44,436 nucleotides of DNA from a virus. The translations under genes and the position numbers were made by a program. The stretch is from positions 1 through 44,436 of the IMG/VR virus record IMGVR_UViG_3300037606_000337; one strand, written 5' to 3'. This document shows positions 23,317 to 44,436 of the stretch, piece after piece. How positions within the stretch are numbered: position 1 is the stretch's first letter; the number at the start of each line of letters is the position of its first letter. A model generated the notes under the pieces. It was not told the origin of the DNA. It did not search any database and was given only the letters and a program-made list of their open reading frames with translations.

Positions 23317-23609
23317 TGGTATTCGCAACAGCAGCAGCCGCGATCGTCGGCGCGGCCTACGGCATCTACTCAGGTGAGTCGCAGTCGAAGCAAGCGCGCA
23401 AGGGTCGCAACCGCCAAGCGGCTGCCCAGAACCAAGCGATGAGCCAGCAGTCAGCCACCGCCGCGCGGTCGCAAGGGCGTGAAGCTCAGCGCCGTCGGGG
23501 GAGGCAGATCGCAATCGCGAACTCGATCTCCGTCAGGTCACCCACCACCCCGACCGCGCTCGATTCCACCACCACCCCCAACGCGGGCACGTCTCGTGTG
23601 CTCGGTTAA
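23316..23609 (+). CDS. Small virion-associated protein with N-terminal hydrophobic helix
   Basis: 97 residues from ATG 23316 (TAATG overlap). The hydrophobic/glycine N-terminus (MVFATAAAAIVGAAYGIYSGE) is followed by a long basic glutamine/arginine-rich helix (QSKQARKGRNRQAAAQNQAMSQQ...) and a Thr/Pro-rich tail. This layout is common for small proteins directly before the portal gene in podoviruses and echoes the N-terminus of internal virion protein gp14-like genes. It overlaps the portal start (TAATG). Confidence 0.6.
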   Translation: MVFATAAAAIVGAAYGIYSGESQSKQARKGRNRQAAAQNQAMSQQSATAARSQGREAQRRRGRQIAIANSISVRSPTTPTALDSTTTPNAGTSRVLG

Positions 23610-25306
23610 TGACCATCGCTGAAGCCAAGAAGGCGGGTACTCGCTCGTCGGAGGAGCTGTTGCTCCAACGGTTGCTTGACCGCCACACGCGGTTGAAGTC
23701 GGAGTATTCCGATCAGCGCCCGGGCCACGAAGATATCACGCACCAACTCTGCCCGTGGCGAGGCAGGTTCAACCCGAAGAGCCGAGCGAACAAGACCGTC
23801 GAGCCCGACCGAGCTGTCGTCGACTCGACCGGCTACCGCGCGATTCGCGGCATGGGCGCGTTCCTCATGGGCGGCGGTTCTTCACCTGCGCGCAATTGGT
23901 TTCGGCTCGCTTGCCCAGATCCCGCACTCGCGGAACTCTACTCGGTGCGCACCTTCTACGCTGAGGCAGCGCGGCGCATGCGCTTTGTCCTCTCGCGGTC
24001 GAATGCATACCAAGCGATGCACAACGTCTACGAGGAAGTGAGCGCCTACGGCACCGCGTGCGCGCTGCTTGAGCGCAACTTCGACAACGTGCTGCACATG
24101 CACGTGCTCACGGTGGGCCAGTATTTCTTGAGCACGGACCCCTACGGGGCGGTGAACACCGTCTACCGCGAGTTCGAGATGACCAATGCTCAGCTACAGT
24201 CTGAGTTTGGTTTAGAGACCCTGACGCCCGAGATGCAGGCGCAGATCAAGAACGGTCAGCTTGAGACGCTGCACACGGTGATCCACGCCGTCGAGCCGCG
24301 CGAGGATCGAGTGCAGAGTTTGTCCGATCAGAACAACATGCCGTTCCGCTCGGTCTACTTCCTCCGCGGTGAGCGGAGAGACCACACCACACGCGGAGTT
24401 CTGCGCGAGGGCGGCTACAAGCTGTTCCCCTACCTCGTGCCGCGTTGGTCGGTGACGGACTTGAACGCGTGGGGTTACGGCCCGGGCCATGAAGCCGTGC
24501 CGCACGCACAGCGTCTGCAGAAGATGCAGTACGCCATGGGCAAGGCTGTCGCGTTTGGCGTTGAACCCCCGATGCAAGGCCCCGCGGGGCTGACGCAGCG
24601 TGAGATCAAACAGCGCCCCGGCGGCTACACCGCAGTTCCGAACGGCGGCAACCAGAAGATCGAGAACTTGTTCAACGTCAACCTCGACGTGAACGCGTTG
24701 AGCGACCAGATCGACCGCACGCAAGAGCAGATCCAACGCGCGTGCTACAACGACTTGTTCTTGCTCGTCATGAACAGCCGCCGCGCGAAGACCGCGACGG
24801 AAGTTGACGAGATGCACGAAGAGAAGATGCTCATGCTCGGCCCGGCGTTGGAGCGGTTGCACAATGAGATGCTGCGGCCGTTCATCGAACGCGTGTTCGA
24901 CTACATGGACGAAGCAGAGCTACTGCCACCGCTGCCAACTGAGCTTGAAGGTGTGCCGTTGCAAGTCGAGTTCGTCTCGATGCTGCAGCAGTTGCAACAA
25001 GCGAGTGGCGTTGTCACCCTTGAACGATTCCTAGGCATGATTGCGGCGGGCTCGGCAGCCTTCCCCGAGATGCTCGACGTGGTCGACGCCGACAACGTGG
25101 CACGTGACTACGCGAACATGCTGGCGATCGAACCGGATAACCTGAAGGACCCTGACGTTGTGGCTCAGCTACGCCAAGCGCGCAATGAAGCCCAAGCGAT
25201 GCAAGCTCAGTCCGAGGCAGCGGCGGTGCAAGCCAAAGCCACTCGCGACGTAGCTGCCGCGTCGCGAGACGCGCCTGAACTCATCAACCAATTCACGGGA
25301 TACTAA
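23609..25306 (+). CDS. Portal protein (podovirus head-to-tail connector)
   Basis: 565 residues from ATG 23609. The N-terminal RLLDRHTRLKSEYSDQRPGHEDITHQ, the GGGSSPARNWFRL region, and the central LVPRWSVTDLNAWGYGPGHEAVPHAQRLQKM are hallmarks of the head-to-tail connecting protein family of T7-like virions. TEVDEMHEEKMLMLGPALERLHNEMLRPFIERVF forms the long helices of the stem/wing. A C-terminal alanine/glutamine-rich helix (NEAQAMQAQSEAAAVQAKA) fits the crown/barrel. It forms the dodecameric DNA gate on which TerL and the tail tubular proteins dock. Length is in the usual range. Confidence 0.93.
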   Translation: MTIAEAKKAGTRSSEELLLQRLLDRHTRLKSEYSDQRPGHEDITHQLCPWRGRFNPKSRANKTVEPDRAVVDSTGYRAIRGMGAFLMGGGSSPARNWFRLACPDPALAELYSVRTFYAEAARRMRFVLSRSNAYQAMHNVYEEVSAYGTACALLERNFDNVLHMHVLTVGQYFLSTDPYGAVNTVYREFEMTNAQLQSEFGLETLTPEMQAQIKNGQLETLHTVIHAVEPREDRVQSLSDQNNMPFRSVYFLRGERRDHTTRGVLREGGYKLFPYLVPRWSVTDLNAWGYGPGHEAVPHAQRLQKMQYAMGKAVAFGVEPPMQGPAGLTQREIKQRPGGYTAVPNGGNQKIENLFNVNLDVNALSDQIDRTQEQIQRACYNDLFLLVMNSRRAKTATEVDEMHEEKMLMLGPALERLHNEMLRPFIERVFDYMDEAELLPPLPTELEGVPLQVEFVSMLQQLQQASGVVTLERFLGMIAAGSAAFPEMLDVVDADNVARDYANMLAIEPDNLKDPDVVAQLRQARNEAQAMQAQSEAAAVQAKATRDVAAASRDAPELINQFTGY

Positions 25307-27087: not shown

Positions 27088-28125
27088 ATGGCACTTCTTA
27101 GCAGCACCAACTTGACCTTGGCCGACTGGGCCAAGCTGTTCGATCCAGACGGCAAGCTCGCCGTCATCACTAACGTTCTGTCGCAGACGAACGAGATCCT
27201 TGAAGACTGCGTTTTCAAGCAAGCCAACGGCAAGACGCATCACCGCGTCACGATCGCCACCGGTCTACCCGCCGTCTACTGGCGCCAGATCAACCAAGGC
27301 ATCCCGCCGAGCAAGCAAACCACTGCGCAAGTCGATGAAGGCATCGGCATGCTCGAAGCACGCTCCGAGACCGACTGTGTCCTCGCACGGCTGAGCGGTG
27401 ACGTTGGCAAGTTCCGGATGAGCGCAGCTCTCAGTCACATGGAGTCGATGGGTCAGACCCAAGCGCGCACCATGTTTTACGGCAACACGACCACGCAACC
27501 CGCGAGCTACCTCGGCTTGTCCGACCGCTTCGGTGTGGCGTCCGGCGCAGCCAACTCGCAAAACGTTTTGCTTGGCGGCAGCTTGGGTGGGCAGACGGAT
27601 AACATGTCCGTGTGGCTCGTGGGCTGGGGTGACGAAACCGTCTACTGCACGTTCCCTGAGGGTTCGCAAGCGGGCTTGATTCACCAAAACCTCGGCGAGC
27701 AAACGGTCTACGGCGCAGGTGGCGTTGCAGCCAACCGCATGCAGGCGTTTGTGGACCTGTATCAGTGGCACCACGGCATGGTCGTGCAGGATTGGCGCTA
27801 CGTCGTCCGCATCGCAAACCTCGACGCAGGCGACGCGAACACACTCGGAGGCTTCCAATCCCCGACCGACCTGAACAACATCCTTCACCAGATGGTTAAG
27901 GCGGTCTACCGCGTGCCGAACCTCAACATGTGCCGCCCGGCGTTCTACGTGAACCGCCTCGCGCACAGCGCTTTGAGCCGCATCGCGATGGAGAAGAGCC
28001 AGACCGCTTTGGCTCTGCAGTCGGGGTTGACTCAGTTCGGTTCGCCGACGAACTACCTCACGTGTCTCGGCATTCCGATTCGCCGTTGCGACACCCTCGC
28101 CGTCAACGAGACGCGCGTCGTCTAG
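27088..28125 (+). CDS. Major capsid protein
   Basis: 345 residues from ATG 27088. LTLADWAKLFDPDGKLAVITNVLSQTNEILEDCVFK and KTHHRVTIATGLPAVYWRQINQGIPPSKQTTAQVDEGIGMLEARSETD match the capsid proteins of BPP-1/BcepC6B-like podoviruses. NSALSHMESMGQTQ-like segments, FYGNTTTQPASYLGLSDRFG and the C-terminal TNYLTCLGIPIRRCDTLAVNE are also typical. It is expected to adopt the HK97 fold. Preceded by scaffold and followed by a palindromic hairpin and the cement-like proteins. Confidence 0.9.
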   Translation: MALLSSTNLTLADWAKLFDPDGKLAVITNVLSQTNEILEDCVFKQANGKTHHRVTIATGLPAVYWRQINQGIPPSKQTTAQVDEGIGMLEARSETDCVLARLSGDVGKFRMSAALSHMESMGQTQARTMFYGNTTTQPASYLGLSDRFGVASGAANSQNVLLGGSLGGQTDNMSVWLVGWGDETVYCTFPEGSQAGLIHQNLGEQTVYGAGGVAANRMQAFVDLYQWHHGMVVQDWRYVVRIANLDAGDANTLGGFQSPTDLNNILHQMVKAVYRVPNLNMCRPAFYVNRLAHSALSRIAMEKSQTALALQSGLTQFGSPTNYLTCLGIPIRRCDTLAVNETRVV

Positions 28126-29338: not shown

Positions 29339-29364
29339 GCCGCGCGCGGGAAACTGCGCGCGGC
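29339..29364 (+). terminator. GC-rich hairpin before the esterase-tail tubular fusion gene
   Basis: GCCGCGCGC (29339-29347) pairs perfectly with GCGCGCGGC (29356-29364) around GGGAAACT. It is followed by ATAATCCC and then the ATG at 29373, so there is no U-tract. It could attenuate transcription or shield the start site of the next gene. Confidence 0.45.
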
Positions 29365-29372
29365 ATAATCCC

Positions 29373-32285
29373 ATGCCTGAGCAATACGCAATCTTGTGCG
29401 GTGGCCAATCCCAAGGCCTGAAGGTCAGCGAGCTTTCAAAGTTCGAAGACCGAACGCCCGAGACTTCACCGCGGAACCCCGCGGTGTTTCCTCGCACCGC
29501 GCTAGCAAGCCGCGCGTTCACTCAGGACACGTTCACGCTGCCGGGCGTCTGGCCTGCGAAGTATACGAATATGCGGTTGCGCGGGCGCGCGTCGACCGCG
29601 GTGATGAGGCTCACGCCTTACAACCCGACCGCCTCCTACTACGAGCTGCAGAACGTGGGTGTAGGACCCCTCGCGTATAACGGCCACATCACGCGCGCCT
29701 ATCCCGGCTACGCAGCGGCTCAAGACTACCAAGCGGTGAACAGCCGCACGCGGCTGAGCCTTATGTGCGCGTTTCAAGCTGACCCCGCGGGGTTGACGCT
29801 CACGCGCGAGAGCACGGGCACTACCCACTTGATCGCGGCGGGCTGGGTGAACACTGCGCCCGGCACGGTGATTCTTGCGCAGCCGCTTGAGTCGCCACTG
29901 CAACAAGGCGAGGTGTTCAAGCTCCCGTTGGTGTGCCGGTCCAGCGTCACAACGCGGCAGGTTGCGAGCAATGTCCGCTTCGGCGGGTTCAACGATATTG
30001 GCTCAGCGTTCGAACAGCTCTTTGGCACGTCGATCACTGTCGGCAACAACAAGGCAGTCGAGTATCCGATCTTGTTCCCCGCGGTGATGATCGGCACCCC
30101 TGTGGCTATCGAAGCAAAGAGCCGATACCACCGCGCCGGGCAGAAGGTGCGGATCGCTAGCGTGGGAGCGCAGCACACGGACATTGCCGCCGCCACCGAT
30201 TATTGGATCACGCGCGTCGACTTCAGCATCGTGAACGCGCCGAGGCTCTACATCTCGCCGCTGCGCAACGGGCCTGAGGTTGTCTACTCGGGAACCCCAC
30301 CAGTGGAGGCGCACAAGATGGCGCAGATCCCGCAATCGGTGGGCACCACCATGGCGGGCATGCAAGTGAGATTCACGTCCGGCGCGATGAACGGGCAGGC
30401 GTTCGCGCTCGATGACAACGTGCTAGTGGCGAACACGCCAACCGACGACTTCAACTTGCAGACCATCGAGATAATGCCCTCGGTGCCGCAAGCGGCCGAC
30501 ACCTTCGTAGTGGAGCCGCAGCCGATCAACGGCGACGACGTGCCTTGGGATGAGTTTGCATACTTCACGCCCGAGTGCTCGATGGACGGGCAGAGCTACG
30601 GCCAAATCACCCCCGTGGCTGCTAACTACCCGACCACGGCGCCGGGCACCCCTGTAACCCTCACCTTCCCGGTCGGGCACGTCTACGAAGGCTTGAGGTT
30701 TCGGGCCTTCGACTACTACAACGTGGCGGCGCTTACCACGACCACGGCCCCGATCTCAGGAGGGCTGCTCGGTGTTGGGCAGGTGCTCTACGCGGTGAAC
30801 GTGAACTACGCCACCGGTGCGTGCAACGTGTCCGCGACGTATGGCGGAGCCCCCATCAGCAACGCAACACTCACCGCCTCAGTGGTTGGTGTCGCGCATG
30901 ACGAGCACCCCGATCGCGGCAACCCGATGCCGCCCGGCTGGAACTTTGACAACGCCAACTCGGTGCCCTACGTCTACCAACCCTACTTCGGTGCTGAGCC
31001 CACGCTCTACACCGGCGACAAGGGCGCGACCTTCACCACATCGCTCGGTCTCGCGATGCACCAGCGGCTCGGGCAGTCGGTCTACGTCATCCACACGAAC
31101 GTCGGAGGCTCTTCGCTCGCGAGGCGCGAGACGACTACCGCGGACTTGCTGACGGTGAACGCAGCGGCGCACTCGTGGTTTGACCCGTCCGTCATGCTTG
31201 ATTGGACGCCGAACGCTGAGGTTGAAGGCTGCTATGCACGCACCGCCAAGTCTCTCGTCATGGCGAAGCGCGCAGCTCTAGCCGCGGGTCACACGTTGAA
31301 GATCGTCGGTGTGTTCTTCCCTCAAGGGGAGTCAGACATTCTCTTCGCGGGGATGCTCGACCGATACGCCGCCAACATCCGCGCGCTGATTGCAGCGACT
31401 CGCGCGCTGATCGTCGAGTTAGGGCTCTGGGATGGCCCAGCTTCTTCTATCCCATGGTGGCAGCCGCACGTTCCCCTCACAGTTGGCAACGACTGGGGCG
31501 GTGACGGCTACGCCAGCAACGCGGTGTTCAACGACATCCTGGACGACCTCGCCGACGAAGACCCTTACTTCGTCACGCGCCCGGTGGACGACGCGACCGT
31601 CGGATACGATCAAGTTCACTACAGCGGTGACTACCAGTTCACGCTTGGGCTCCACGCCTTCGCGGATTGGGACGCAGTCGCACAAGACGTTGGTGATCGC
31701 ACGCAAGTCGACATCTGCAACCAAGCGTTGAAGAACGTAGGTGAGTCACGCGTGATCGAGTCGCTGACGGAGACCACCGCGGCAGCCTCCATCTGCCGCC
31801 GCTACTACCCGGTCGCCGTGCGCACGCTGCTTGAGGCGTTCCCGTGGGAGTTCGCGAGCAAGACGAAAACGCTCACCGCAGTTGCCAACCCGCGCGAGGC
31901 GCTAGACTGGGCGTACGCCTACAGGCTGCCCTCCAACTTCTTGGCGGTGGTCGGCATCGGCCCCGACATCGCGGCGGTGCTCGATGTAGTCGACGTTGAG
32001 CACACTGTGCTCGGCAACGTGCTTTACTGCAACCTATCCGAAGTGACGTTGCGCTATTCGACGATCGCGCCTGACCCGGCTCGGTATACCCAGCACTTCA
32101 CGAACGCACTCGCGCACCAACTGGCTTCAGAGATCGCGCCCGCGCTCGCTCAAGGCGACAAGGGCGCAGCGCTGGCTCAGTCTCAAATGCAGCTCGCGCG
32201 ATACTTCATCGACCAAGCGCGCGAGCACTCGGCGGTGCGGTTGCGCCACGCCAACCCGACCCCCACTAAATACGCTTGGGACTAG
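29373..32285 (+). CDS. SGNH esterase fused to tail tubular protein A
   Basis: 970 residues from ATG 29373, one uninterrupted frame. SGNH/sialate-O-acetylesterase-like blocks are visible: CGGQSQG (nucleophile S13), TNVGGSSLA (~575), PQGESD (651-655) and YDQVHYSGDYQF (D746, H749). A ~500-residue beta-rich insert separates the first two blocks. Residues ~776-970 are a full-length tail tubular protein A (T7 gp11-like): VDICNQALKNVGESRVIESLTE, ICRRYYPVAVRTLLEAFPWEFASK, YRLPSNFLAVVG, HQLASEIAPAL. No in-frame ATG lies near the junction. The protein would place an esterase on the head-tail interface ring, able to deacetylate host surface glycans during adsorption. Tail tubular B follows directly, supporting the tail role. 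Confidence 0.85.
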   Translation: MPEQYAILCGGQSQGLKVSELSKFEDRTPETSPRNPAVFPRTALASRAFTQDTFTLPGVWPAKYTNMRLRGRASTAVMRLTPYNPTASYYELQNVGVGPLAYNGHITRAYPGYAAAQDYQAVNSRTRLSLMCAFQADPAGLTLTRESTGTTHLIAAGWVNTAPGTVILAQPLESPLQQGEVFKLPLVCRSSVTTRQVASNVRFGGFNDIGSAFEQLFGTSITVGNNKAVEYPILFPAVMIGTPVAIEAKSRYHRAGQKVRIASVGAQHTDIAAATDYWITRVDFSIVNAPRLYISPLRNGPEVVYSGTPPVEAHKMAQIPQSVGTTMAGMQVRFTSGAMNGQAFALDDNVLVANTPTDDFNLQTIEIMPSVPQAADTFVVEPQPINGDDVPWDEFAYFTPECSMDGQSYGQITPVAANYPTTAPGTPVTLTFPVGHVYEGLRFRAFDYYNVAALTTTTAPISGGLLGVGQVLYAVNVNYATGACNVSATYGGAPISNATLTASVVGVAHDEHPDRGNPMPPGWNFDNANSVPYVYQPYFGAEPTLYTGDKGATFTTSLGLAMHQRLGQSVYVIHTNVGGSSLARRETTTADLLTVNAAAHSWFDPSVMLDWTPNAEVEGCYARTAKSLVMAKRAALAAGHTLKIVGVFFPQGESDILFAGMLDRYAANIRALIAATRALIVELGLWDGPASSIPWWQPHVPLTVGNDWGGDGYASNAVFNDILDDLADEDPYFVTRPVDDATVGYDQVHYSGDYQFTLGLHAFADWDAVAQDVGDRTQVDICNQALKNVGESRVIESLTETTAAASICRRYYPVAVRTLLEAFPWEFASKTKTLTAVANPREALDWAYAYRLPSNFLAVVGIGPDIAAVLDVVDVEHTVLGNVLYCNLSEVTLRYSTIAPDPARYTQHFTNALAHQLASEIAPALAQGDKGAALAQSQMQLARYFIDQAREHSAVRLRHANPTPTKYAWD

Positions 32286-35200
32286 ATGACCAACACGAAG
32301 CTGCTGCACAACTCGTTCAACGCTGGCGAGATCAGCCCCGAACTCTTCAGTCGTGTGGACACTCAACAGTTTCGGTTTGGCGCGGCGAAGGCTCGTAACT
32401 GGATCACCAAGGCGTCGGGTGCCGCGCAGCTACGCCCCGGTTTCGAGGTGCTGTCGACCTCAGCGGCCAAGCCTCGGCTAGTCGCGTTCCGAGATGATGG
32501 TGACGACTACATCATCTCGGTTGAGGTGGGGCGGTTCCGCTTGTTCCGCAACGGCGTGCCGATCAGCGTGCAGGGCGGAGCTAATGATGTGTTTTTCTGC
32601 GGCGACCAAGAGACCAGCGGCAACATTGACTTAGTCAACAACGTCATCTACACGACTCGGCCTCACAACTTCGAGGAGCTTGAGGAAGTGCGCGTCACGT
32701 CGGTGGGTGGCACCGGTGAGCCGGGAGGGCTCAGTAGCGTGTTCGTCTACGAGGCGAGGACTCAAGGCCCCTACGGCCTTCAGTTCAAGATAGGGGCAGC
32801 CGACCCCGTCGACATCACCACACTCAACACCGGGCTGCTCTTCATCTGGCACGAGGCGGGGCTGCCCGAGGACTACGTAGGGCCACTTCCGCTATCGAGC
32901 GTGTCAGCCCTCGGAGTCGGCATTGGAGGCTTTGGGGGCTACGACGCCGACTACTCGACTGTGACGCTAACTTCGCCGCACGGGTGGCCTGTAGGGACTC
33001 AGTTCAAGTGGTTGGAGTCAGGCGGCGGTGTAGCACCCGTCACCCGAGGGGTGAACGGCTACCCCAACCCCTACCAAGGCGAGACGTTCTTCACCGTCGA
33101 GCCCACGGGCACCCTCACGACTTCGCAGTTCGACGCCTCGCAAACGAAGTTCGGCTACACGCTTTCGATCACCCCTACGGGGGTTACCACTCCGTTCACC
33201 CCTACGGTCTCCGCATCGCGCAAATACCTAGCGGGCCAAGTTATGTTCCTGCGTGCGTCGGTGGGTGCGTTCGCCGCTAACACCTTCATCCGAGCTAAGG
33301 TCGACGTGTTCGCCGACGCGGCGGGCCCACAATCCGCCGAGTGGGAGGTTGCACCGTCCCCGTGGCTAGAGATCCCCAACAACTACACCGCGAGCGAGTT
33401 GTTTGAGCTGACCTACGCTCAGACCGCGGGGGTCATACGCTTCGCGCACCGCAACCATCCGGTGTTGGAGCTATACAAAGACGGCACCACGTGGGCCTAC
33501 CGCAACCCTCTGGCAGCGTCGGCGATAACCCTCGCGCCCACTGTCGTGCCAACTCGCGGCGCGCAGATCGGCATTGCGTCCTCGACTGCGGGGGCCTTCG
33601 GCACCATCACGCTTCGAGCTGACACGGGGCTAGGCGCAGGCGATCTCGTGTATGCGATCGGGAGCCTCGCGGTGCCCGATGGGTTCTACGTCATCGGGCG
33701 AGTGGCTTCCGCGGGCAAGGTCATCGACGAAATGATGAACTTGACCGGCGCGCTCGCGACCTCGGCGTTGTCCAGCGGAGGCGGGACACTCATCCCGGTC
33801 GAGTCGACTGCGGACTCGAACACTCGCTACGTCATCACCGCGGTCGATAAGAACGGCCGCGAGTTCGCACGGTCGTCACCGTCTGCCTCGACGTTCAACT
33901 TGCTGACGAACTCGGAGGCTTACAACGAAGTTTCGTGGACCACTACCGGGGAAGCGGCAGCCTACCGAGTCTACAAAGAGACCGACGGCACGGAGCTGTT
34001 CGGCTTCATCTCGGAGGTTGGCACTCCCCCTTTCCTCGACCGCAACGTTCCGCCGGATTACGCAACGCTCGCCCCCGAGATCGACACCGAGCTGCAGCTC
34101 GACTACCCCGGCGCGGTGGGCTTTTTCGATCAGCGCGGTGCGTTTGGCGGTAACACTGCCAAGCCTCAAGGCGTGTGGCTCAGCTCGACCGGGCGCGACG
34201 ATGAGTTAGTAACTCGACGCACGCAGCTCGACACTGACCGCATCGCTTTGGAGATCAGCGCGGGCGAAGCCCAGTCGGTGCGGCACCTCGTATCGGTGAC
34301 TGAGCTGCTCATACTCACCAATACCGCGACGTGGGCACTCACCACGCAGAACACCGACGCGCTCACACCGAATTCGGCTGCGGTGCGCTTGCAGACAACC
34401 GTCGGCGCGAGCTACGTCCGCCCGGTGATGATGGACAACGCCGTGCTCTACGCATCGGGGGGCGGACACATCTACCGCCTCGGCTACCAACTCACCGAGA
34501 ACAGCTTCGGCGGCCCCAACTTGTCGACTCGTGCCTCGCACTTGTTTGACTCGGTAACCTTGAATGACTCGGCAGGCACCAAATCGCGAGTCAGCGCCGC
34601 GTGGTTCACCGACTCAGCGGGCGGACTGCTCGGGCTGACCTACTCCGAGGAAGAGCAGGTAGCGGGTTGGCACCGCCACACGCTGCGAGACTTCGACATT
34701 GTCTCGGTGGCCGCAGCTCAAGAAGCGGGCGAGGACCGGCTCTACGTCGCCATCGAGCGAGATGGGGTCTTCTACATCGTGCGGCAGCAGTCGTTGAACA
34801 TCACCGGGGCGATGAGTAGCGCGCATCTCGACATGTGCTTCACGCGCAACACGCTGGCGTCAAGCGGCACCTTGACGGTGCTCGGGTCGACTCGCGTCGG
34901 CGCGTCGGTGCGGGTCACTGCGAGCGCGAGGGCGTTCGACTTCGACATGATCGGCGAGACGATCTACTTCCCCGAATCGACGCTGACGGTGAAGATCACC
35001 TCGCGCACGTCCAACGCCGAAGTGCAAGCGTTGGTCCTCACCGCGGGCTCGGTGACAACCTCCACAAACTGGGGCGTGTCGGTGACTCACCAACGCAACC
35101 GCGGGGTTCAAGGCACGGAGCCGGGGCGCCAAACGACCGCCGTGCTCCAAGCGGTTGACGGCTCGGTGTCGATTCAAACGTTGACCGTCGACACGAACGG

Positions 35201-35549
35201 GATGGTGCGCTTGCCGTTCCCGTGCCGCACGTTGCACTTGGGCATTCCATACCCGAACGAACTTCGCACGATGCCGGTGACGGCTCAAATGGAAGCGCTT
35301 GGGTTGGGGCGCATGAAGGCAATCTCGCACGCCTACGTGCGAGTTTACCAGTCCGCGGGCCTCGGTGTCGGCCCCGACGCTGCGCGCACTTCCACGCTCT
35401 ACCCTGACGACAACGAGTTACACTCCGAAGAGAACCGCGAGCTTGTAGAGCAGTCTTGGACCCGAGACGGGCAAGTCTCGTTTGTTCAACACTTGCCACT
35501 GCCCGCAACCGTTGTCGGGGTGACGCTCGACGTTTCCTTCGGAGGCTAA
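32286..35549 (+). CDS. Tail tubular protein B (tail nozzle protein)
   Basis: 1087 residues from ATG 32286, directly after the fusion gene's stop codon. The N-terminus LLHNSFNAGEISPELFSRVDTQQFRFGAAKARNWITKASGAAQLRPGFEVL is the signature of T7 gp12-like tubular B/nozzle proteins. Later segments (RLVAFRDDGDDYIISVEVGRFRLFRNG, SSTGRDDELVTRRTQLDTDRIALEISAGEAQSVRHLVSVTELLILTNTATWAL, WHRHTLRDFDIVSVAAAQEAGEDRLYVAI) are also typical. It is longer than T7 gp12 (~794 residues), the extra part being beta-rich domains in the middle. It forms the conical nozzle below the tail tubular A ring. Confidence 0.9.
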   Translation: MTNTKLLHNSFNAGEISPELFSRVDTQQFRFGAAKARNWITKASGAAQLRPGFEVLSTSAAKPRLVAFRDDGDDYIISVEVGRFRLFRNGVPISVQGGANDVFFCGDQETSGNIDLVNNVIYTTRPHNFEELEEVRVTSVGGTGEPGGLSSVFVYEARTQGPYGLQFKIGAADPVDITTLNTGLLFIWHEAGLPEDYVGPLPLSSVSALGVGIGGFGGYDADYSTVTLTSPHGWPVGTQFKWLESGGGVAPVTRGVNGYPNPYQGETFFTVEPTGTLTTSQFDASQTKFGYTLSITPTGVTTPFTPTVSASRKYLAGQVMFLRASVGAFAANTFIRAKVDVFADAAGPQSAEWEVAPSPWLEIPNNYTASELFELTYAQTAGVIRFAHRNHPVLELYKDGTTWAYRNPLAASAITLAPTVVPTRGAQIGIASSTAGAFGTITLRADTGLGAGDLVYAIGSLAVPDGFYVIGRVASAGKVIDEMMNLTGALATSALSSGGGTLIPVESTADSNTRYVITAVDKNGREFARSSPSASTFNLLTNSEAYNEVSWTTTGEAAAYRVYKETDGTELFGFISEVGTPPFLDRNVPPDYATLAPEIDTELQLDYPGAVGFFDQRGAFGGNTAKPQGVWLSSTGRDDELVTRRTQLDTDRIALEISAGEAQSVRHLVSVTELLILTNTATWALTTQNTDALTPNSAAVRLQTTVGASYVRPVMMDNAVLYASGGGHIYRLGYQLTENSFGGPNLSTRASHLFDSVTLNDSAGTKSRVSAAWFTDSAGGLLGLTYSEEEQVAGWHRHTLRDFDIVSVAAAQEAGEDRLYVAIERDGVFYIVRQQSLNITGAMSSAHLDMCFTRNTLASSGTLTVLGSTRVGASVRVTASARAFDFDMIGETIYFPESTLTVKITSRTSNAEVQALVLTAGSVTTSTNWGVSVTHQRNRGVQGTEPGRQTTAVLQAVDGSVSIQTLTVDTNGMVRLPFPCRTLHLGIPYPNELRTMPVTAQMEALGLGRMKAISHAYVRVYQSAGLGVGPDAARTSTLYPDDNELHSEENRELVEQSWTRDGQVSFVQHLPLPATVVGVTLDVSFGG

Positions 35550-36223: not shown

Positions 36224-38592
36224 TGTCAACCCCGCGCGAAACACTTCAAGGCTCGGGCTCCGGTGGCCTTGTCTCAGCCCCGACAGTCACGCCGGTGCAA
36301 GGCACCCAAGCGCAGCAGATCGCGCAGCTCGGTGACGCGATCGCAAGCACCGGAGTCCAGGGCTTCAGGTTGTCGCGCGACATGCAGCACGACTTCGACA
36401 ACGCCAAGTATCAAGAAGCCAGCGCCCGCTACGCGGAGCTGCTGGCAAACGAAGAAGCGCAGTTCGACCATCTGACCGGCGAAGACGCGCACACCGCGTT
36501 TCCAAAGCTGCAGGAGAAGTTGCATATCAAGCGCAACGAACTCGACAAGAACCTCACTTCAGAGACTCAGCGACGGGCGTTCGGGCGTGACTCCTCGATG
36601 CGTCAGACGGTGGCGCTGAATCGCATGAACGCTCGCCGCGCCGAGCAACTGAAGATTCACCGGCTAGGCGCTGCGTCGGCCTCGCTTGAGCAGGAGATGC
36701 GCGACCGCGTTCACTCTGCGATCAAAGGCGACGCGCCCGACTACATCCGCAAGTCGGCGGTGATGGCGTTCAAGTTGCACCAGCTCGCTGAGTTGAACAA
36801 CTTGCCCGAAGAAGTCGCCGAGCTTGCGCGCGAGACCGCTGAGTCGGCGGTGAACACCGCCATCGTCGAAGGTCTCATCGAGACGGGTGCGGCTGGCCGC
36901 GCTGCCAACTTCCTCGAAGAGAACGGCGAGCTGATCCAAGACCCCGTGAAGCGCGAGGCGTTGAAGAAGCGGATCAGCACGCTCAACGTCAAGCAACGCG
37001 CCGAGAGCTTGGTCGACGTTGCGCGCGGGCAAGGCGACCTAATCAAGCAGCGTCGTTTCATCCGCGACCTCGATGAGTCTCAGGAAGTGAAGGATGAACT
37101 GCTACGCCGCGCGCGCGACCTCGCTTCTGAGGATCTGCAGCAGGACGGCTACCGCAAAACGGAAGCACTCGGTAGAGCGAGCGAGCTGCGCCTAGCGGGC
37201 GAGCCGTGGCCTGAGGCGCTTGAGACTGAGCTAGGTGAACTCGGCATCTTGAACCAAGCCAAACACATGGCGCGGAACGTGACCACCGACGCAGGCGGCC
37301 ACTTCATGGAGACGGTGTCGGGGAATCAGCTACTGCTTTTCTCAACGTCTGAGTCCCTGATTGCGGCGGTGGGAGGTGAACTCTCTGACAGTGATCGACG
37401 GATACTCGCCGAGATGTGGCGGCGCACCGCCTCCACCGAGATGCTGAGGCAGAACGACATCGCCGAGCAGAAGGGTCAACGCAACGGCAGCGGCACGGGC
37501 CAACGTTCGGGCTTCACCGCCCCAGGTGAGAAGACCGTGTTTGACTTGGACACCAACGCGGTAATCGACCAGTACCTCACCGACCACTACGAGAACTGGC
37601 GCTCGGCCGACATGGCGAAGCTGCCGATCGCGATGGTGAACCGCCGTCGTAGCATCCGCAACGCGGTGGCCCTCAAGGCTGACGCGATCGCGCGCTCGCT
37701 AGGTCAGACCAGCCCAACAAACGAGACCATCAACGCAGCAGTCCGAGAGGTGCTCAAGGTCAAGACGACTACCGGGTTGTCAGCCGCGGGGCTTTCACCG
37801 CAGGAGTTGGAAGCCTCAACGTTGATCTTCGACATTGAGGGCAAGCCCCAACACCTCAGGGTCTCGACGATCGGGTTGCCCGGTGAGGGTCCCAACGAGT
37901 CGGCCAAGCGTCGCTTTACCAGCACGCGCGCCGCGCTCATCGAGGCGGCCATGCCTGAGTTGTCAGCCCACCTCGAAGGTGTCCCGCCTGACGAGCTGCG
38001 TCGCATCGCGGAAGGCTTGGTGAGCACGCAGGACGTTTACAAAGACCTCGCGCGCCAAGAGCGCTTCGACGCCGCCACCGCAAGAGAAGCCGCCCCCTTG
38101 CTCGAAGCGGGGCGCGAGCTGAGCCCTGATCTGCGCAGGCGCCTCGGTGCGTCCGCCAGCCAAGGCGGCCCGCTCCAACGTGAGACCGACGCCGGGCAAA
38201 CGATGGCCCGCAACTTGTGGACGGGCACGCTGGCGTTTGGTCTTCAAGATGAGGACGACGACACCTCGCGCGATGACATTGCTTTCATCAAGATGTGGCC
38301 GAAGTTCCGCGACCTCCACTCAGACCACTTGCGCGCGATGTTCCCCGGCGTGCTCGGTGCAGACGACGGGGCGTTGCGGGACAAGATGGTTGAACTGCTG
38401 TTCCCCGACGCCACGCCGGAGCAGCAACGTCGGTTACGCTTCGCAGCGAACCCGATCCCGCACAACGCGGGCCCCAACCTCCCCCGGAGAGGGGTCAACG
38501 CTGAGGGGCTAGACCGATACCTCAGCGAGAACCCCGAAGAGATCGAGTTCGGTTACACCCTCAACGGCCAACGCATCCAACGAACTGAATGA
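36223..38592 (+). CDS. Internal virion protein (gp15-like position)
   Basis: 789 residues from ATG 36223, overlapping the previous stop. Long helical, charged regions with repeated E/R/A-rich segments; there are no transmembrane helices and no enzyme motif visible. The N-terminal QQIAQLGDAIASTGVQGFRLSRD is followed by DFDNAKYQEASARYAELLA. Its place between the gp14-like and the giant protein fits the middle ejection protein. Codons 33-53 are duplicated as DNA at 10971-11033. It overlaps the giant gene by ATGA. Confidence 0.75.
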   Translation: MSTPRETLQGSGSGGLVSAPTVTPVQGTQAQQIAQLGDAIASTGVQGFRLSRDMQHDFDNAKYQEASARYAELLANEEAQFDHLTGEDAHTAFPKLQEKLHIKRNELDKNLTSETQRRAFGRDSSMRQTVALNRMNARRAEQLKIHRLGAASASLEQEMRDRVHSAIKGDAPDYIRKSAVMAFKLHQLAELNNLPEEVAELARETAESAVNTAIVEGLIETGAAGRAANFLEENGELIQDPVKREALKKRISTLNVKQRAESLVDVARGQGDLIKQRRFIRDLDESQEVKDELLRRARDLASEDLQQDGYRKTEALGRASELRLAGEPWPEALETELGELGILNQAKHMARNVTTDAGGHFMETVSGNQLLLFSTSESLIAAVGGELSDSDRRILAEMWRRTASTEMLRQNDIAEQKGQRNGSGTGQRSGFTAPGEKTVFDLDTNAVIDQYLTDHYENWRSADMAKLPIAMVNRRRSIRNAVALKADAIARSLGQTSPTNETINAAVREVLKVKTTTGLSAAGLSPQELEASTLIFDIEGKPQHLRVSTIGLPGEGPNESAKRRFTSTRAALIEAAMPELSAHLEGVPPDELRRIAEGLVSTQDVYKDLARQERFDAATAREAAPLLEAGRELSPDLRRRLGASASQGGPLQRETDAGQTMARNLWTGTLAFGLQDEDDDTSRDDIAFIKMWPKFRDLHSDHLRAMFPGVLGADDGALRDKMVELLFPDATPEQQRRLRFAANPIPHNAGPNLPRRGVNAEGLDRYLSENPEEIEFGYTLNGQRIQRTE
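36318..36380. repeat. 63-bp duplicated segment, copy B
   Basis: 62 of 63 bases identical to 10971-11033, same orientation on the plus strand. Here it is sense coding (IAQLGDAIASTGVQGFRLSR) and starts 95 bases downstream of the internal virion protein's start codon. As this reading frame flows naturally through both flanks, B is probably the source copy. Confidence 0.95.
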
Positions 38593-41500
38593 CCGACCTA
38601 GGCGCGATCCCGCGTGACGACTTCCGCGATGAGTTTCGGGAGCGTTTGCGCTCCCTGCGCCTTGACCGAGCTGCTCGGGTCAGTGTCGCGATGTCCGAGA
38701 AGCGATCGGCTGAGGCGCTCGGAGAGGCCCGTCAGCTCGCTGAGCGCTTGGGCAGCCCAATGGCCAACGTCTTGGCGGACGTTGAACACGCGAAGCGCGT
38801 GGCCGCTCAGCGGCGCGTCACGGCCCCGAGCTTCGACCGGGACTTCCCGGCGCTAGCCTCCAAGATCGACGGTGACTTCGACTTCCTGACGATGTCCCGC
38901 GACGACATGGGCAACCTCGAATCCACCGAGGGGGCTTTGAAGTGGGTTGGGCGGTCGTTCGACAACAGCGCCGACGGAGTGCTCGGCTCGATCCGAACCA
39001 CGCTAGGACGCGCAGGGTTCGACGTTAAGAAGCTCAGCCCAGCAGAGAAGCAGGTATACCGCGAACGCCAGCAGATCGCCGCACAGCGCGACGGGGACAA
39101 CTGGGGCGCGGACGCCATCAACGTGTTTACCTCGATGGGCGCCACCGTCGGCGCGGGCGCGGTCGGCTTCGCGGTCGGTGGCCCGGTGGGCGCTGCAGCC
39201 GGCGCGTCGGCGGTGTCGTTCGCGATGTCGTCAGGCGAAGTATACAACGACCTGATCGACTCGGGCTACACGCCCGACCAAGCCGCACCGCTCGCTGACG
39301 GATGGGGTGGGGTAATGGCCGCGCTGGACGTGGTCGGTGCTGGCCGCACCGCCTCAGCGTTCTCGAAGACCTACGGCAAGAAGCTCTTGCCAATGCTGTT
39401 CAAGAAGGGGCTGCCCCTGGATACGCGCAAGAGCTTGCTGCTGTCGGCGGTGAAGGATTACGCGCTAGACATTGGCGTTGAGTCGGCCACCGAGGTGATG
39501 CAGCAAGCCGCCTCGATCGCGGCTCGCTACCAAGCGCACAACAACTACCGCTCAGGGGAGTTCGATGTCGACGTGTCGGCCGAGCTGTGGGACACGTTCG
39601 TTCACACCGCCCGCGGGATGACTCTCGTAGGCATGCCGGGCGCGGGAATGCGCATCCGCAGCGGCATGACGCAAGCCGCCAACGCCAAGCAGACGATGGT
39701 GGCGCACGAGAGGTTGGGGAAGATCGAAGCTGAATCCAAGCTCGGTAAGCGTTCACCGAGTGCTCGCGCGGAGTTCGTGACCGCTGCAGCGCCCGACGGG
39801 ATCAAGACGGTCTACGTGCGGCCTGACAAGTTGCTCGACACGATCGACAAACTTGAGCAAGACCCGGCGCACTCCGAAGTGCGAGCCGAGTTGCTGGAGA
39901 CGTTCCCCAACATCCTCGCCCAAGCAAAGCAGGCGCTTGAGGAAGGCACCGACGTGCAGTTGCCGATCGGTGACTGGCAAACGAAGCTCGCGCAAAGTGA
40001 ACTCGGTCGGCGGTTGATGCCGCACGCAGTGTTCCACCAAGACGCGGACACACCTTCCGAGCGAGAGGAACTCGCACCGCTGGAAGGGGACTTCTCGGCG
40101 GTGATGAACGAGGCGGCGGCGCGGGCTGAAGTCGACCAAGCCTACGGCGACGCGCTTGAGAAGGTCTACTCGGATGCCTACACGCAATCGCTCGCTACGG
40201 GCCGCCCGGCTGAGGAAGCTCGCGCGGCTGCGTTGTTCATCCGCAACATGTCGGTCGCGCTCGCGAAGCACGAAGGCATCGAGTTGAAGGAGTTCATCGA
40301 GCGCAACACCATGCTCGCCGTCGAGCGCGGCGCAGGCGTGAACGCTCGCCCTGACGCGCTGTTCCAAGATGAAGTGATCCAGGACGTAACCGAGGCGCGC
40401 CGCACTGGCGGCGACATCAACCAGAACCCGAACCCTGAGAAGGTGATCGCGGGGTTCCAAGTTCGAGCTTTGCGTGAGGGGGCTTTCGAGTTCCAGAGTG
40501 ACAACGTTGCAGGTGCGTTCGTGCTCAGCGAGTCGGGTCACGCGGTCACTGACGGGGTGAGCACTCGGGCGGGAAAGTTCGACACCTACAGCTACCGAAT
40601 GTTCCTGCGGGCCCTCGCCGATCAGTTCGGGTCTGTGACGAGCGGAGAAGATCTCACCTACGACGAAAATAACGCGTGGGCGTCGTCGGGGGCGCAGCTC
40701 AACAAGGCGGGCGATTACGTGTTGAAGCGCGCGGGCGCCCCAAAGTTCCAACTCTTCTCGGCGGTGCAACGCGAGCTTGAGTCGGTGCAAGCGAAAGCAC
40801 TCCCGCCAGTCGGGTGGCGCGACACAATTAACAGCCTCATCACCAAAGGCAAAGTGAAGCGGGCCGAGATCGACGCTTCAGGCATCCTTGATTGGCTCGC
40901 GCTGCAGACGGGCAAGGTCACCCGTGAGGCGGTTGTCAAAGAGTTCGACCGGCTCTCAGTGAAAGTGGCCATGCCGCTCGCGCCGCCGATCGTTCGCGAC
41001 CTAAGGTCAGACGGCGAATTCCTTGAGCGTTGGGGCGTCTACTACGAAGGCAACCTCGAAGGCTACTACCCAAGCGAAGACGACGCCCTGTCGACGGCGT
41101 ACGACTATAACGACAGGCTGCTGCGAGAAGACTACTGGGTCACCGCTGAGACTGAGAGAGACTCAACGCCCTTCTATCGGCCCTATGTCTACCTAGGCCG
41201 AGTCCAATCGGACTTGACTGATGCGATGGTTGAGCTGATCGACGCAACCGGCGGGGTCCATTCAGTGGGATACGACGTCGAGGGTAACCCGGCTCGCGTT
41301 TGGCTGTCAGACGAGGAGAGTAACTACGACGACGAGCAAGCGGCTCAAGACTTGCTCGACGAACTCGAAGAGACCTACGGCGAGCAGTTGCCCGGCGCGA
41401 GCTTCAGCATCGCCGAGGTTTACGGCGAGCAAGACGTGTGGGTGTTGAACACTCCTAGCGGAGACACCCGTTTCTACGACGAAGCCGAAGCATACACCGC

Positions 41501-44436
41501 GTTGGAGCAAGCGCGCCAGAACTTCGAAGGCGGCTACTACGTGTTGGAGGATGCAGAGCACAACCAACGAATCGCAGGGTTGAACGAAGAGCGCCGCCAA
41601 CTCGAAGAAGACGGGGTTCTCGACGACGACGAGACTGTTGAGCGACAAGTAGCGTTTGCGAACTACACCGTCGAAGGCCAGAAGGACAGCTACGAAGAGC
41701 ACGTGATTGTGCTTGAACGGGTGAAGGGCGCGGCGGTGACTGACGTGAAGTTCGGCGCGAAGTTCGACGCGGCCTCGATTAACCACGGCATGATGGCCGA
41801 GATTCGGAATGTCAACCGCTTGCTGCATATCCGCACTAGCCGCCGACTGAACTCTGACAACGAGCCTGTGCTGTTTGTCGAAGAGCTACAGAGTGACTGG
41901 GCACAGCGGTCGTCCGACGGCTTCTTGACCAGCAGGGAGCAGCGGAAGGCCGACATTGACGTTCTGCGTCAGGAACGCGAACCGTTCACCGACGAAGACC
42001 CCGAATTCCAATCCTTATCCAACGCGATCGCGGCGGTGGGGAGCGGGTTCCCTTTGGCGAAGGCGCGAGCGCACGGCGACCTGACTTGGCAGCGGCGGCT
42101 AGCTAAGAAACGCGCGATAGCCGCCATCCAACCCGAGGACGTTGACGCGGCCGAGGTGGAGTCGAGCCGCCTCTACGACGAGTTGCTTGAGTTCAAAGAC
42201 CTGCAGCATGAGTCCGCGCCCTTGATCGCGACGCGAGCGTTTGCCGTCGAAGTAGACGGGGAGCAGCTCACCGACAAGAACGGCAATCCGCAGCGGTTCG
42301 GCTCGGCGGTGGAAGCTGAGGCTTACATCAAGAAGGCGAAGAAGGGGGCAGTTGTAGACCTAGGCGATAGCGCTAACTCGAAGTCTTGGGTAACGCTAGG
42401 GCTGAAACGGATCATGTTGATCGCGGCCTCGCGCGGCATCAAGCACGTGGCGTTCGCGTCGGGGCAGCAGAACGCGGACCACTACAGCTTGAGCAGCCAC
42501 GTGCGCAAGGTGACCTTTGTTGCCGACCGCTCGAAGCACCCAGTCAATACCTCCGCGCGGAACCTCAAGGAAGTTCGGCTCGACTTCGCGGGCGGCAACA
42601 GCAGCCTCATCCTCTACGTGAACTCGCTAGGGCGCGTCCGCATTGCGAACGGTCCAGGGTCCTACAGAGTTGAAGGTGAGAAACTGTCGGAGGTGCTCGG
42701 CAAAGAGTGGGCGGACAAAGCTCTATCCTTGGCCCCAGGTGAAAGCCTCGACTTGAGCGTCGACATCGGGGGCAAGGGCATGAAGGCGTTCTACGACGAG
42801 ATGATTCCGCAAACGGCGAAGCCTTTGTTGAAGAAGCTCGGGCTTCAGATGGGGGTGATCCCCATCAACGCGGTCAACAAATACGCACGCACTGAGGTGA
42901 CGCGTGAGCAGGCGCTAGTAGGGATGCAGAGTAGGGCTCCAGCCTTCGTGACGTTTGACAACGGGCTAACGCGCCGAGTTGACGAGGCAGGAGAGCTTCA
43001 CGCACTTGAGGCGCCGCGCGACACGCATACCACTCGAAGCGTCTCGGTTGACATGCTCCCCAAGAGTCAGATGGACCTCGACCTTTTGGAAGGGGAAGAC
43101 CGCACCACATACTCTTGGGGCATGGCGAGTCCGACCGGGGTAGTGAACCCGGCGTTATGGAACCCAGTCCACGACTACGCGCAGCTTGAACAGCTCGTAG
43201 CTGACCCGACGATCGTGTTCCGGGAGGTGGTCCGTGAGCCTAAGCCGGGGAGGGTGCCGGTGAAGTTTGAGCAAGGGTCGGGCGTAATGACTCAGCAGGG
43301 TTTCACGCTCACCGACGAAGCGATGGCGGAGCTGGAGCAAGGGCTCGCGTTGTTCCAAGACGGCGACGGTGAAGCCCGCGGGGGTTTCGAGCCCGTCATC
43401 AACCGCATCTTGATGAACAAGGACTCAGACAGTTCGACGCTCTTCCACGAGATGTCGCACTACTACCTCGAAGAACTTTCGCGCATCGCAACGCTGACGG
43501 GGCAAGACTCGACTGCGGCCAACGAGCTTGGCATCGTTCTAGCGTGGGCCGGTGAAGACCCCACCCAGTGGTCCGCGAAGACCATCGACCAGCGGCGCAA
43601 AACACATGAGGCGTTCGCCATCAACTTCGAGAAGTGGCTCTACGAAGGCGTCGCGCCAACTGAAGAGATGCGCGGCTTGTTCTCGCGGCTGCGCGCGATG
43701 ATGGTTGCGGTCTACACCGACGTAATCACGAAGCTCAACAAAGCATTCAAACGACGCTTCGGCGAGGACCTCCCCGGTCTGACCCCGGAGATCCGCCAAG
43801 TGTTCGGCCGCATGGTTGCCACCGAGGCCGAGGTGCATGCCGCGTTCGAAGCTGAAGGCTTCGAGGCGCTGTTCCAGTCGTCTGAAGAGTTCGTCAAGAA
43901 CGGCGGCACCGAGGACGAATACCTCAAGCTGCAGAAGCTCCACCAGGACACCGAGAACCTCGCGATCGAAGAGCTGACGCGCAAGCGCCTTCGCTCGATG
44001 GAACTGGCGAGCGGTGCAACCCAAGGCGAGCTGAAGCGTCTGCAGCAAGCGCACGTCGTGCGTCGGCGTGAGATCCGCAAGGAAGTCGAAGCCGAGTTGA
44101 AACTGTCGCAGGTTGAACGCTTGCGCTCGTGGCTGCGAAACGGGGAGCACCTCGACACCGAAGGCAACATCGCGTCGACCATGGGGGCGAACACCGTCCA
44201 CCGACTCAACCGCAGCGAAGTGGTTGCCCGTGTCCCTGAGCCCGCGAGGCTCCGCAAGCTCGACAAGCAGAACGCACTCACCCTCTCGGGGCTCAGCGTC
44301 GACACGGTTGCCCCGTTGTTCGACTACGAGAGCGGTGAGCAGTTGCTCGACGCACTCATCGAGTCGCCTGAGTTCGGTGACGCGGTGAAGAGCACCACCG
44401 ACCAGCGGATGAAGGATGAGCATCCCGAGCTAACTG
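38589..44436 (+). CDS. Giant polyvalent internal virion protein with zincin-like motif (3' truncated)
   Basis: Open frame from ATG 38589 (ATGA overlap) to the window edge: 1949 complete codons with no stop. Residues ~183-210 are a glycine/alanine-rich hydrophobic segment (GATVGAGAVGFAVGGPVG), as in membrane-penetrating ejection proteins. Residues ~1085-1260 hold a polyvalent-protein domain: LLHIRTSRR, LFVEELQSDWAQ (E1098-W1104), then GLKRIMLIAASRGIKHVAFASGQQ. A HEMSHYYLE zincin-like metal site lies at H1620-E-M-S-H1624. The end is helical and charged (QRMKDEHPELT). It is the gp16-equivalent position, the last and largest ejection protein. It probably continues in the open frame at 2-2752. No lysozyme/transglycosylase motif was seen. 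Confidence 0.85.
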   Translation, partial: MTDLGAIPRDDFRDEFRERLRSLRLDRAARVSVAMSEKRSAEALGEARQLAERLGSPMANVLADVEHAKRVAAQRRVTAPSFDRDFPALASKIDGDFDFLTMSRDDMGNLESTEGALKWVGRSFDNSADGVLGSIRTTLGRAGFDVKKLSPAEKQVYRERQQIAAQRDGDNWGADAINVFTSMGATVGAGAVGFAVGGPVGAAAGASAVSFAMSSGEVYNDLIDSGYTPDQAAPLADGWGGVMAALDVVGAGRTASAFSKTYGKKLLPMLFKKGLPLDTRKSLLLSAVKDYALDIGVESATEVMQQAASIAARYQAHNNYRSGEFDVDVSAELWDTFVHTARGMTLVGMPGAGMRIRSGMTQAANAKQTMVAHERLGKIEAESKLGKRSPSARAEFVTAAAPDGIKTVYVRPDKLLDTIDKLEQDPAHSEVRAELLETFPNILAQAKQALEEGTDVQLPIGDWQTKLAQSELGRRLMPHAVFHQDADTPSEREELAPLEGDFSAVMNEAAARAEVDQAYGDALEKVYSDAYTQSLATGRPAEEARAAALFIRNMSVALAKHEGIELKEFIERNTMLAVERGAGVNARPDALFQDEVIQDVTEARRTGGDINQNPNPEKVIAGFQVRALREGAFEFQSDNVAGAFVLSESGHAVTDGVSTRAGKFDTYSYRMFLRALADQFGSVTSGEDLTYDENNAWASSGAQLNKAGDYVLKRAGAPKFQLFSAVQRELESVQAKALPPVGWRDTINSLITKGKVKRAEIDASGILDWLALQTGKVTREAVVKEFDRLSVKVAMPLAPPIVRDLRSDGEFLERWGVYYEGNLEGYYPSEDDALSTAYDYNDRLLREDYWVTAETERDSTPFYRPYVYLGRVQSDLTDAMVELIDATGGVHSVGYDVEGNPARVWLSDEESNYDDEQAAQDLLDELEETYGEQLPGASFSIAEVYGEQDVWVLNTPSGDTRFYDEAEAYTALEQARQNFEGGYYVLEDAEHNQRIAGLNEERRQLEEDGVLDDDETVERQVAFANYTVEGQKDSYEEHVIVLERVKGAAVTDVKFGAKFDAASINHGMMAEIRNVNRLLHIRTSRRLNSDNEPVLFVEELQSDWAQRSSDGFLTSREQRKADIDVLRQEREPFTDEDPEFQSLSNAIAAVGSGFPLAKARAHGDLTWQRRLAKKRAIAAIQPEDVDAAEVESSRLYDELLEFKDLQHESAPLIATRAFAVEVDGEQLTDKNGNPQRFGSAVEAEAYIKKAKKGAVVDLGDSANSKSWVTLGLKRIMLIAASRGIKHVAFASGQQNADHYSLSSHVRKVTFVADRSKHPVNTSARNLKEVRLDFAGGNSSLILYVNSLGRVRIANGPGSYRVEGEKLSEVLGKEWADKALSLAPGESLDLSVDIGGKGMKAFYDEMIPQTAKPLLKKLGLQMGVIPINAVNKYARTEVTREQALVGMQSRAPAFVTFDNGLTRRVDEAGELHALEAPRDTHTTRSVSVDMLPKSQMDLDLLEGEDRTTYSWGMASPTGVVNPALWNPVHDYAQLEQLVADPTIVFREVVREPKPGRVPVKFEQGSGVMTQQGFTLTDEAMAELEQGLALFQDGDGEARGGFEPVINRILMNKDSDSSTLFHEMSHYYLEELSRIATLTGQDSTAANELGIVLAWAGEDPTQWSAKTIDQRRKTHEAFAINFEKWLYEGVAPTEEMRGLFSRLRAMMVAVYTDVITKLNKAFKRRFGEDLPGLTPEIRQVFGRMVATEAEVHAAFEAEGFEALFQSSEEFVKNGGTEDEYLKLQKLHQDTENLAIEELTRKRLRSMELASGATQGELKRLQQAHVVRRREIRKEVEAELKLSQVERLRSWLRNGEHLDTEGNIASTMGANTVHRLNRSEVVARVPEPARLRKLDKQNALTLSGLSVDTVAPLFDYESGEQLLDALIESPEFGDAVKSTTDQRMKDEHPELT

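Follow-up and report, generated by a model that had tools for sequence, protein, structure and literature searches.

The window, by which we mean the whole stretch of DNA analysed, is the viral record IMGVR_UViG_3300037606_000337 over its full 44,436 bases. On the plus strand, nucleotides 29373–32285 form one uninterrupted ATG-to-stop frame of 970 codons, as read in the initial annotation, in which an esterase-like module precedes a tail tubular protein A (TTA, portal-adaptor) domain (residues 776–970, 31698–32285, plus strand). The phage lineage is fixed, by sequence homology, by a major capsid protein of the epsilon15 gp7 type (27088–28125, plus strand; PF20911, 5.7e-101), and this protein, together with a Bbp16-like protein, a portal (23609–25306; PHROG_332) and the gene order, places the virus among BPP-1/epsilon15-like podoviruses. 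A single giant virion protein of PHROG_9880 is split by the record ends (38589–44435 and 2–2752, plus strand), with positions 933–1284 at the right end and 1303–2205 at the left, which makes it likely that the record is a circularly permuted genome and close to complete.

Immediately 3' of the stop codon of the fusion gene lies the start codon of a nozzle (tail tubular B-like) gene (32286–35549, plus strand; PHROG_376, 3.4e-107); large open reading frames (ORFs) in the nozzle slot also follow stand-alone TTAs in the contigs L011 and L013. The gap on the 5' side, between a decoration-type gene and the fusion gene, contains a GC-rich stem-loop (29339–29364, plus strand; −26 kcal/mol). Hairpins of differing sequence occupy the same slot in the contigs L005, L006, L008 and L009, in Limnohabitans phage DC33, in MW202640 and in BPP-1, the last with a T-run that makes it terminator-like. 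In T7, the Tphi terminator stands at the equivalent place.

Other features of these genomes were noted in passing. An ORF of 561 aa in the window (18363–20048, plus strand) has a TTG start and a C-terminal half built of ~20-residue repeats (VGLLGVGAAS...); nothing in Pfam, PHROGs or the phage records matches it, and it is a candidate fibre-like protein. The 50.8-kb contig IMGVR_UViG_3300009124_000025 (L006/L007) holds two copies of the capsid gene ~46.3 kb apart, as expected if a ~46-kb genome were terminally redundant. Phage DC33 (PQ492659.1, L003), which its record classes under Inoviridae, has the gene order of a BPP-1-like podovirus.

A tail tubular protein A domain without its own start

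Residues 777–960 match PHROG_394 over profile positions 3–177 of 190 (E = 1.4e-39), a full-length domain match that bears out the complete gp11-like domain proposed in the initial annotation. In the PDB, the domain matches 8ck1_E ("Connector Protein", 6.8e-13) and 9efk_T (12 chains). These C-terminal 195 residues are homologous to T7 gp11/TTA (PHROG_394) and to BPP-1 Bbp14, which share the slot of the fusion gene, behind capsid and decoration genes and ahead of the nozzle gene; the fused TTA thus occupies the TTA position, directly before the nozzle (TTB, PHROG_376) gene. Known TTAs are free proteins of ~190–225 aa, whereas that of the window is preceded by a 775-aa enzyme module and has no initiator codon of its own, beginning in alignments where the stand-alone proteins have their initiator Met. 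The window, L005 and L006 each hold only the fused TTA and no other, so that, barring processing, the fused chain is the expected building block of the adaptor ring. No fibre anchor was found in the fusion protein with Pfam or PHROGs, its C-terminus being the adaptor, and it does not appear to be a fibre or spike protein with a virion-anchor domain of its own. In the TTA proteins of L022–L025, the domain is interrupted midway by ~70 inserted residues.

One frame, shared by related contigs

Relatives were gathered by searching viral contigs with the window capsid protein. The same full-length fusion is present, as one frame, in L005 (965 aa, 56% identity along the whole chain) and in L006 (997 aa, 47% identity), which brings the full TTA fusion to three contigs, window included, among the viral contigs searched; a copy in L008 is interrupted within the insert by the contig end. 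The search for further carriers suggested earlier has therefore yielded two complete copies and a partial one. In L009, whose capsid protein is more distant (51%), the TTA is a free protein of 222 aa. Near the junction, mismatches to L005 fall mostly at codon position 3 (0.61, vs 0.24 and 0.17 for the other two), and this pattern is unbroken across the joint between esterase and TTA. A frameshift or assembly artefact was ruled out because the same fusion occurs in two other viral contigs, derived from different datasets, at these levels of identity; the frameshift or stop near 31690 that had been named as grounds for abandoning the fusion is seen in none of the three contigs, L005 and L006 sharing the single-frame joint. 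An internal start yielding a free TTA was also rejected, since no in-frame ATG, GTG or TTG lies within about 10 codons on either side of the junction in the window, L005 or L006.

An SGNH/SASA-type module with a large insert

From their sequence, residues 1–775 are assigned as an SGNH/SASA-type esterase with a large insert after the first catalytic block. Block I, GQSQG (residues 11–15, 29403–29417), contains the predicted nucleophile S13, and its GQS is invariant in all seven copies. The catalytic core (residues 516–775, 30918–31697), identified by matches to PF03629 and by Foldseek matches to 2apj, CE20 and SIAE, contains the other blocks, all on the plus strand like block I: block II, NVGG (residues 576–579, 31098–31109); block III, QGESD (residues 651–655, 31323–31337), of which QGExD is invariant in the six copies covering it; and block V, D746-x-x-H749 (31608–31619), in which H749 and the following Y750 are invariant. 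Across the seven copies, where covered, S13, Q651-G652-E653, D655 and H749 are invariant, at identities between different copies of 26–55%. Block II is looser: VGG is kept in the window, L005 and L030 and replaced by PA in L006 and by DG in L031 and L039 (L030, L031 and L039 are described below), so that the glycine of the oxyanion hole is lost in L006. The Asp of DxxH is present in the window, L005 and L006; in L030, L031 and L039 it is missing or does not align. Given these two departures, some copies may be inactive. The motif positions in the initial annotation (S13, NVGG, QGESD, D746 and H749) were correct, but D746 is not universal, being confined to the TTA-fused clade. A second GQS-like motif (residues 406–408, MDGQSYG) was considered as the true nucleophile and rejected, as it is not conserved (MQGPAS, MDGPAA, MNGPSF).

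Against the SASA family PF03629, the window protein scores 15.1 bits (E = 0.018), below the Pfam cut-off of 24.8 bits, which L005 (28.6 bits) and L030 (32.6 bits) exceed; when five records were searched, SASA was found at E < 1e-3 in every one, the window protein giving 9.0e-5 there. The scores of L005 and L030 and the retained motifs support the split SGNH esterase recognised at the outset. Two AlphaFold models of the module, made from a 4-row alignment, are of low confidence (mean pLDDT 42.7 and 46.0). With these models, Foldseek returned as best PDB match the SASA-family plant esterase AT4G34215 (probability 1.00), followed at lower rank by CE20, PatB, Est24 and rabbit sialic acid esterase; no PDB match reached E < 0.001. 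The SASA matches cover ~220 columns, too short to span the N-terminal Ser block plus the core. In BFVD, two viral proteins align across 576 and 955 columns at 20–24% identity (E <= 1e-20). Neither the BFVD nor the PDB alignments bear on the location of S13.

The insert (about residues 28–515, 29454–30917, plus strand; ~490 residues) follows the first catalytic block and is beta-rich, with strands in the low-confidence models. It is the least conserved part of the protein and evolves faster than the core and the TTA: identity to L005 is 47.7% in the insert, 64.6% in the core and 69.2% in the TTA. A sub-insert (residues 239–326, 30087–30350, plus strand) occurs in the TTA-fused clade and is absent from L030, L031 and L039; the lowest identity to L006 (0.15, residues 281–320) falls in this region. 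This pattern of conservation is compatible with an enzyme whose insert varies and faces outward; it is not proof of activity.

The same module on another connector

A scan with L006 and L008 recovered the module, at ~29% identity, in proteins of 691 aa (L030) and 692 aa (L031), with E values of 1e-34 to 1e-38 against a best of 0.13 for shuffled controls. In place of the TTA, both proteins end in a ~75-residue domain that matches PHROG_2545, "head-tail adaptor Ad1" (4.6e-9 and 3.1e-6), as well as PHROG_118 and PHROG_5774; Pfam gave no hit to this part at E <= 0.1. The two fusion genes lie between a GpA-type terminase (GpA_ATPase) and a lambda-type portal (Phage_portal_2), a slot that corresponds to that of lambda gpW, and in each contig the fused copy is the sole match to PHROG_2545. 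By profile match and gene slot together, their C-termini are assigned as gpW/Ad1-type adaptors, and this form of the fusion is represented by two contigs. Residues 111–168 of the R4C siphophage adaptor align weakly with the connector part of L030 (E = 0.12). The L030 contig has a tail-tip family match (PF13550) and no sheath match, and that of L031 a lambda FII-like gene, so both are probably from long-tailed, non-contractile phages.

A third partner form is found in L039 (6001–8331), where the module precedes a 159-residue C-terminus that had no hit to the Mu gp36 and gp19 connector families; the 5' neighbour is a 449-aa ORF without phage matches. In a phylogenetic tree, the TTA-fused group and the group of the other copies are each fully supported. 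The occurrence of one module on TTA and on the PHROG_2545 adaptor means that at least two unrelated connector proteins have gained it as an N-terminal part: the partner changes and the N-terminal position of the module is constant. For two unrelated proteins that bind the portal or neck, selection for placing the module there is the best explanation. Elsewhere, tblastn with the modules of the window, L005, L030 and L039 gave nothing convincing among 50,697 phage records, and the module was found neither in plasmids, with the L031 module as query, nor in GTDB genomes.

Discussion

The sequences themselves give the fusion and its conservation, assign each half to a family and show the module reused on a second connector. 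From there, we consider it fairly probable that the esterase is carried on the portal-adaptor ring, in ~12 copies, and deacetylates host surface glycans. A single polypeptide would supply both parts, its C-terminal 195 residues entering the ring and its N-terminal ~775 residues forming the esterase; we infer this location from homology. Ring assembly would then place about 12 modules outside the neck, as the ring is 12-fold in T7 and SU10 and 9efk has 12 chains. There they might strip ester groups, most likely O-acetyl, from polysaccharide on the host surface as the short tail makes its way to the cell, and the insert may serve to bind the glycan or hold it in position. The proposal that the esterase is built into the head-tail ring thus stands as regards covalent fusion to the sole TTA, and the gpW/Ad1-type adaptor fusions in lambda-like loci lend further weight to an enzyme carried at the neck.

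Several known systems resemble parts of this arrangement. The adaptors of T7 (gp11) and SU10 are dodecameric rings with fibres docked outside (PMC6702177, PMC9509320). TTPA gp31 of Klebsiella phage KP32 combines a structural role with claimed hydrolysis of host exopolysaccharide (PMC5440376), an activity ascribed to the ~190-residue TTA itself, whereas the window protein has a separate, recognisable esterase domain fused to it. The SGNH enzymes G7C gp63.1 and Possum gp66 deacetylate host O-polysaccharide (PMC9569702) from tail-bound fibres or spikes; the window esterase is instead covalently part of the ring protein. The 12-copy adaptor of R4C (PDB 8gtd) bears an additional domain at its N-terminus, outside the capsid (PMC10276861), but this is an Ig-like attachment domain of ~106 residues, while that of the window is enzyme-like. 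The suggestion that the arrangement is undescribed held in part. The literature searched, in which few subscription journals were covered, yielded no head-tail connector with an esterase fused to it, and an esterase on a connector is new as far as our searches went; large N-terminal extensions of TTA are not, since the TTAs of two deposited podoviruses, UOF77486.1 (MW202478) and UOF77207.1 (MW202473), have extensions of about 420–520 residues. Neither extension gave an esterase hit, and that of UOF77486.1 is of the beta-repeat type. In their records, MW202478.1 (1741–3699, L027; 652 aa) and MW202473.1 (3001–5262, L032; 753 aa), these proteins are annotated just as tail tubular protein A.

A structural whisker or adhesin at the neck, in which the esterase fold is a scaffold for a glycan-binding insert and catalysis is weak or missing, is in our judgement unlikely. 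It would suit the loss of the block II Gly in L006 and its alteration in L031 and L039, the restriction of the DxxH Asp to the TTA clade, and an insert that is the larger and most variable part; other TTAs bear beta-repeat extensions without an esterase hit, and the neck passage proteins of TP901-1 have carbohydrate-binding ends (PMC10747895). The latter are likewise neck appendages, although separate from the adaptor and with no esterase domain reported, whereas the window module is fused. What makes a dead scaffold unlikely is that Ser, QGExD and His are invariant in copies down to 26–31% identity. The candidate fibre-like ORF at 18363–20048 could be the main adhesin, which would be a point against the enzyme on the ring as the best explanation.

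Processing offers another route to an ordinary ring: were the chain cut after synthesis, or translation of the TTA begun internally, the esterase could be released or attached elsewhere. Phage structural proteins are often processed, and an ORF upstream of the capsid gene appears to be of protease or scaffold type, but we noticed no shared cleavage motif, the three genomes offer no start codon near the junction, and fusion to a different connector in L030 and L031 argues that tethering is selected; we hold this to be quite improbable. Still lower, in our estimate, is the probability that the enzyme has a substrate other than surface polysaccharide, such as a lipid ester or O-acetylated peptidoglycan met while crossing the envelope. 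The fold match to the peptidoglycan O-acetyltransferase PatB and the description of P22 gp4, also a portal adaptor, as a peptidoglycan hydrolase (PMC5440376) point in that direction, whereas the closest matches are carbohydrate esterases (2apj, CE20, SIAE) and the large insert better suits a bulky surface glycan. As for a missing base that joins two adjacent genes, a one-base indel near 31700 is possible in principle in a metagenomic contig, yet the identical joint in L005 and L006 and the continuous codon-position signal leave it a vanishingly small chance.

Beyond the enzyme on the adaptor ring of the window phage, we put at roughly even the broader reading that this is a transferable neck-enzyme module, its variable insert facing the glycan, carried by at least two and perhaps three unrelated connectors in podovirus-like and siphovirus-like phages, and that the ring serves as a general mount for enzymes that modify host glycans, next to fibres, spikes and baseplates. 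For the siphovirus-like relatives, contact with the envelope is less obvious, as their necks presumably lie a long way from the cell surface. Because one module recurs on two unrelated connectors, the idea can be tested directly.

Searches for phage depolymerases and deacetylases are directed at fibres, spikes and baseplates. Were such enzymes carried on connector rings as well, current annotation would be missing them: the genes resemble ordinary tail or neck genes and, in this case, the family scores of the enzyme half are weak. It would also mean that a dodecameric ring can tolerate an enzyme of ~700 residues without assembly being stopped, and that the virion neck can take part in the handling of host glycans. 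Together, the two kinds of fusion suggest that the phage neck, like the tail fibres, can be a site for surface-modifying enzymes.
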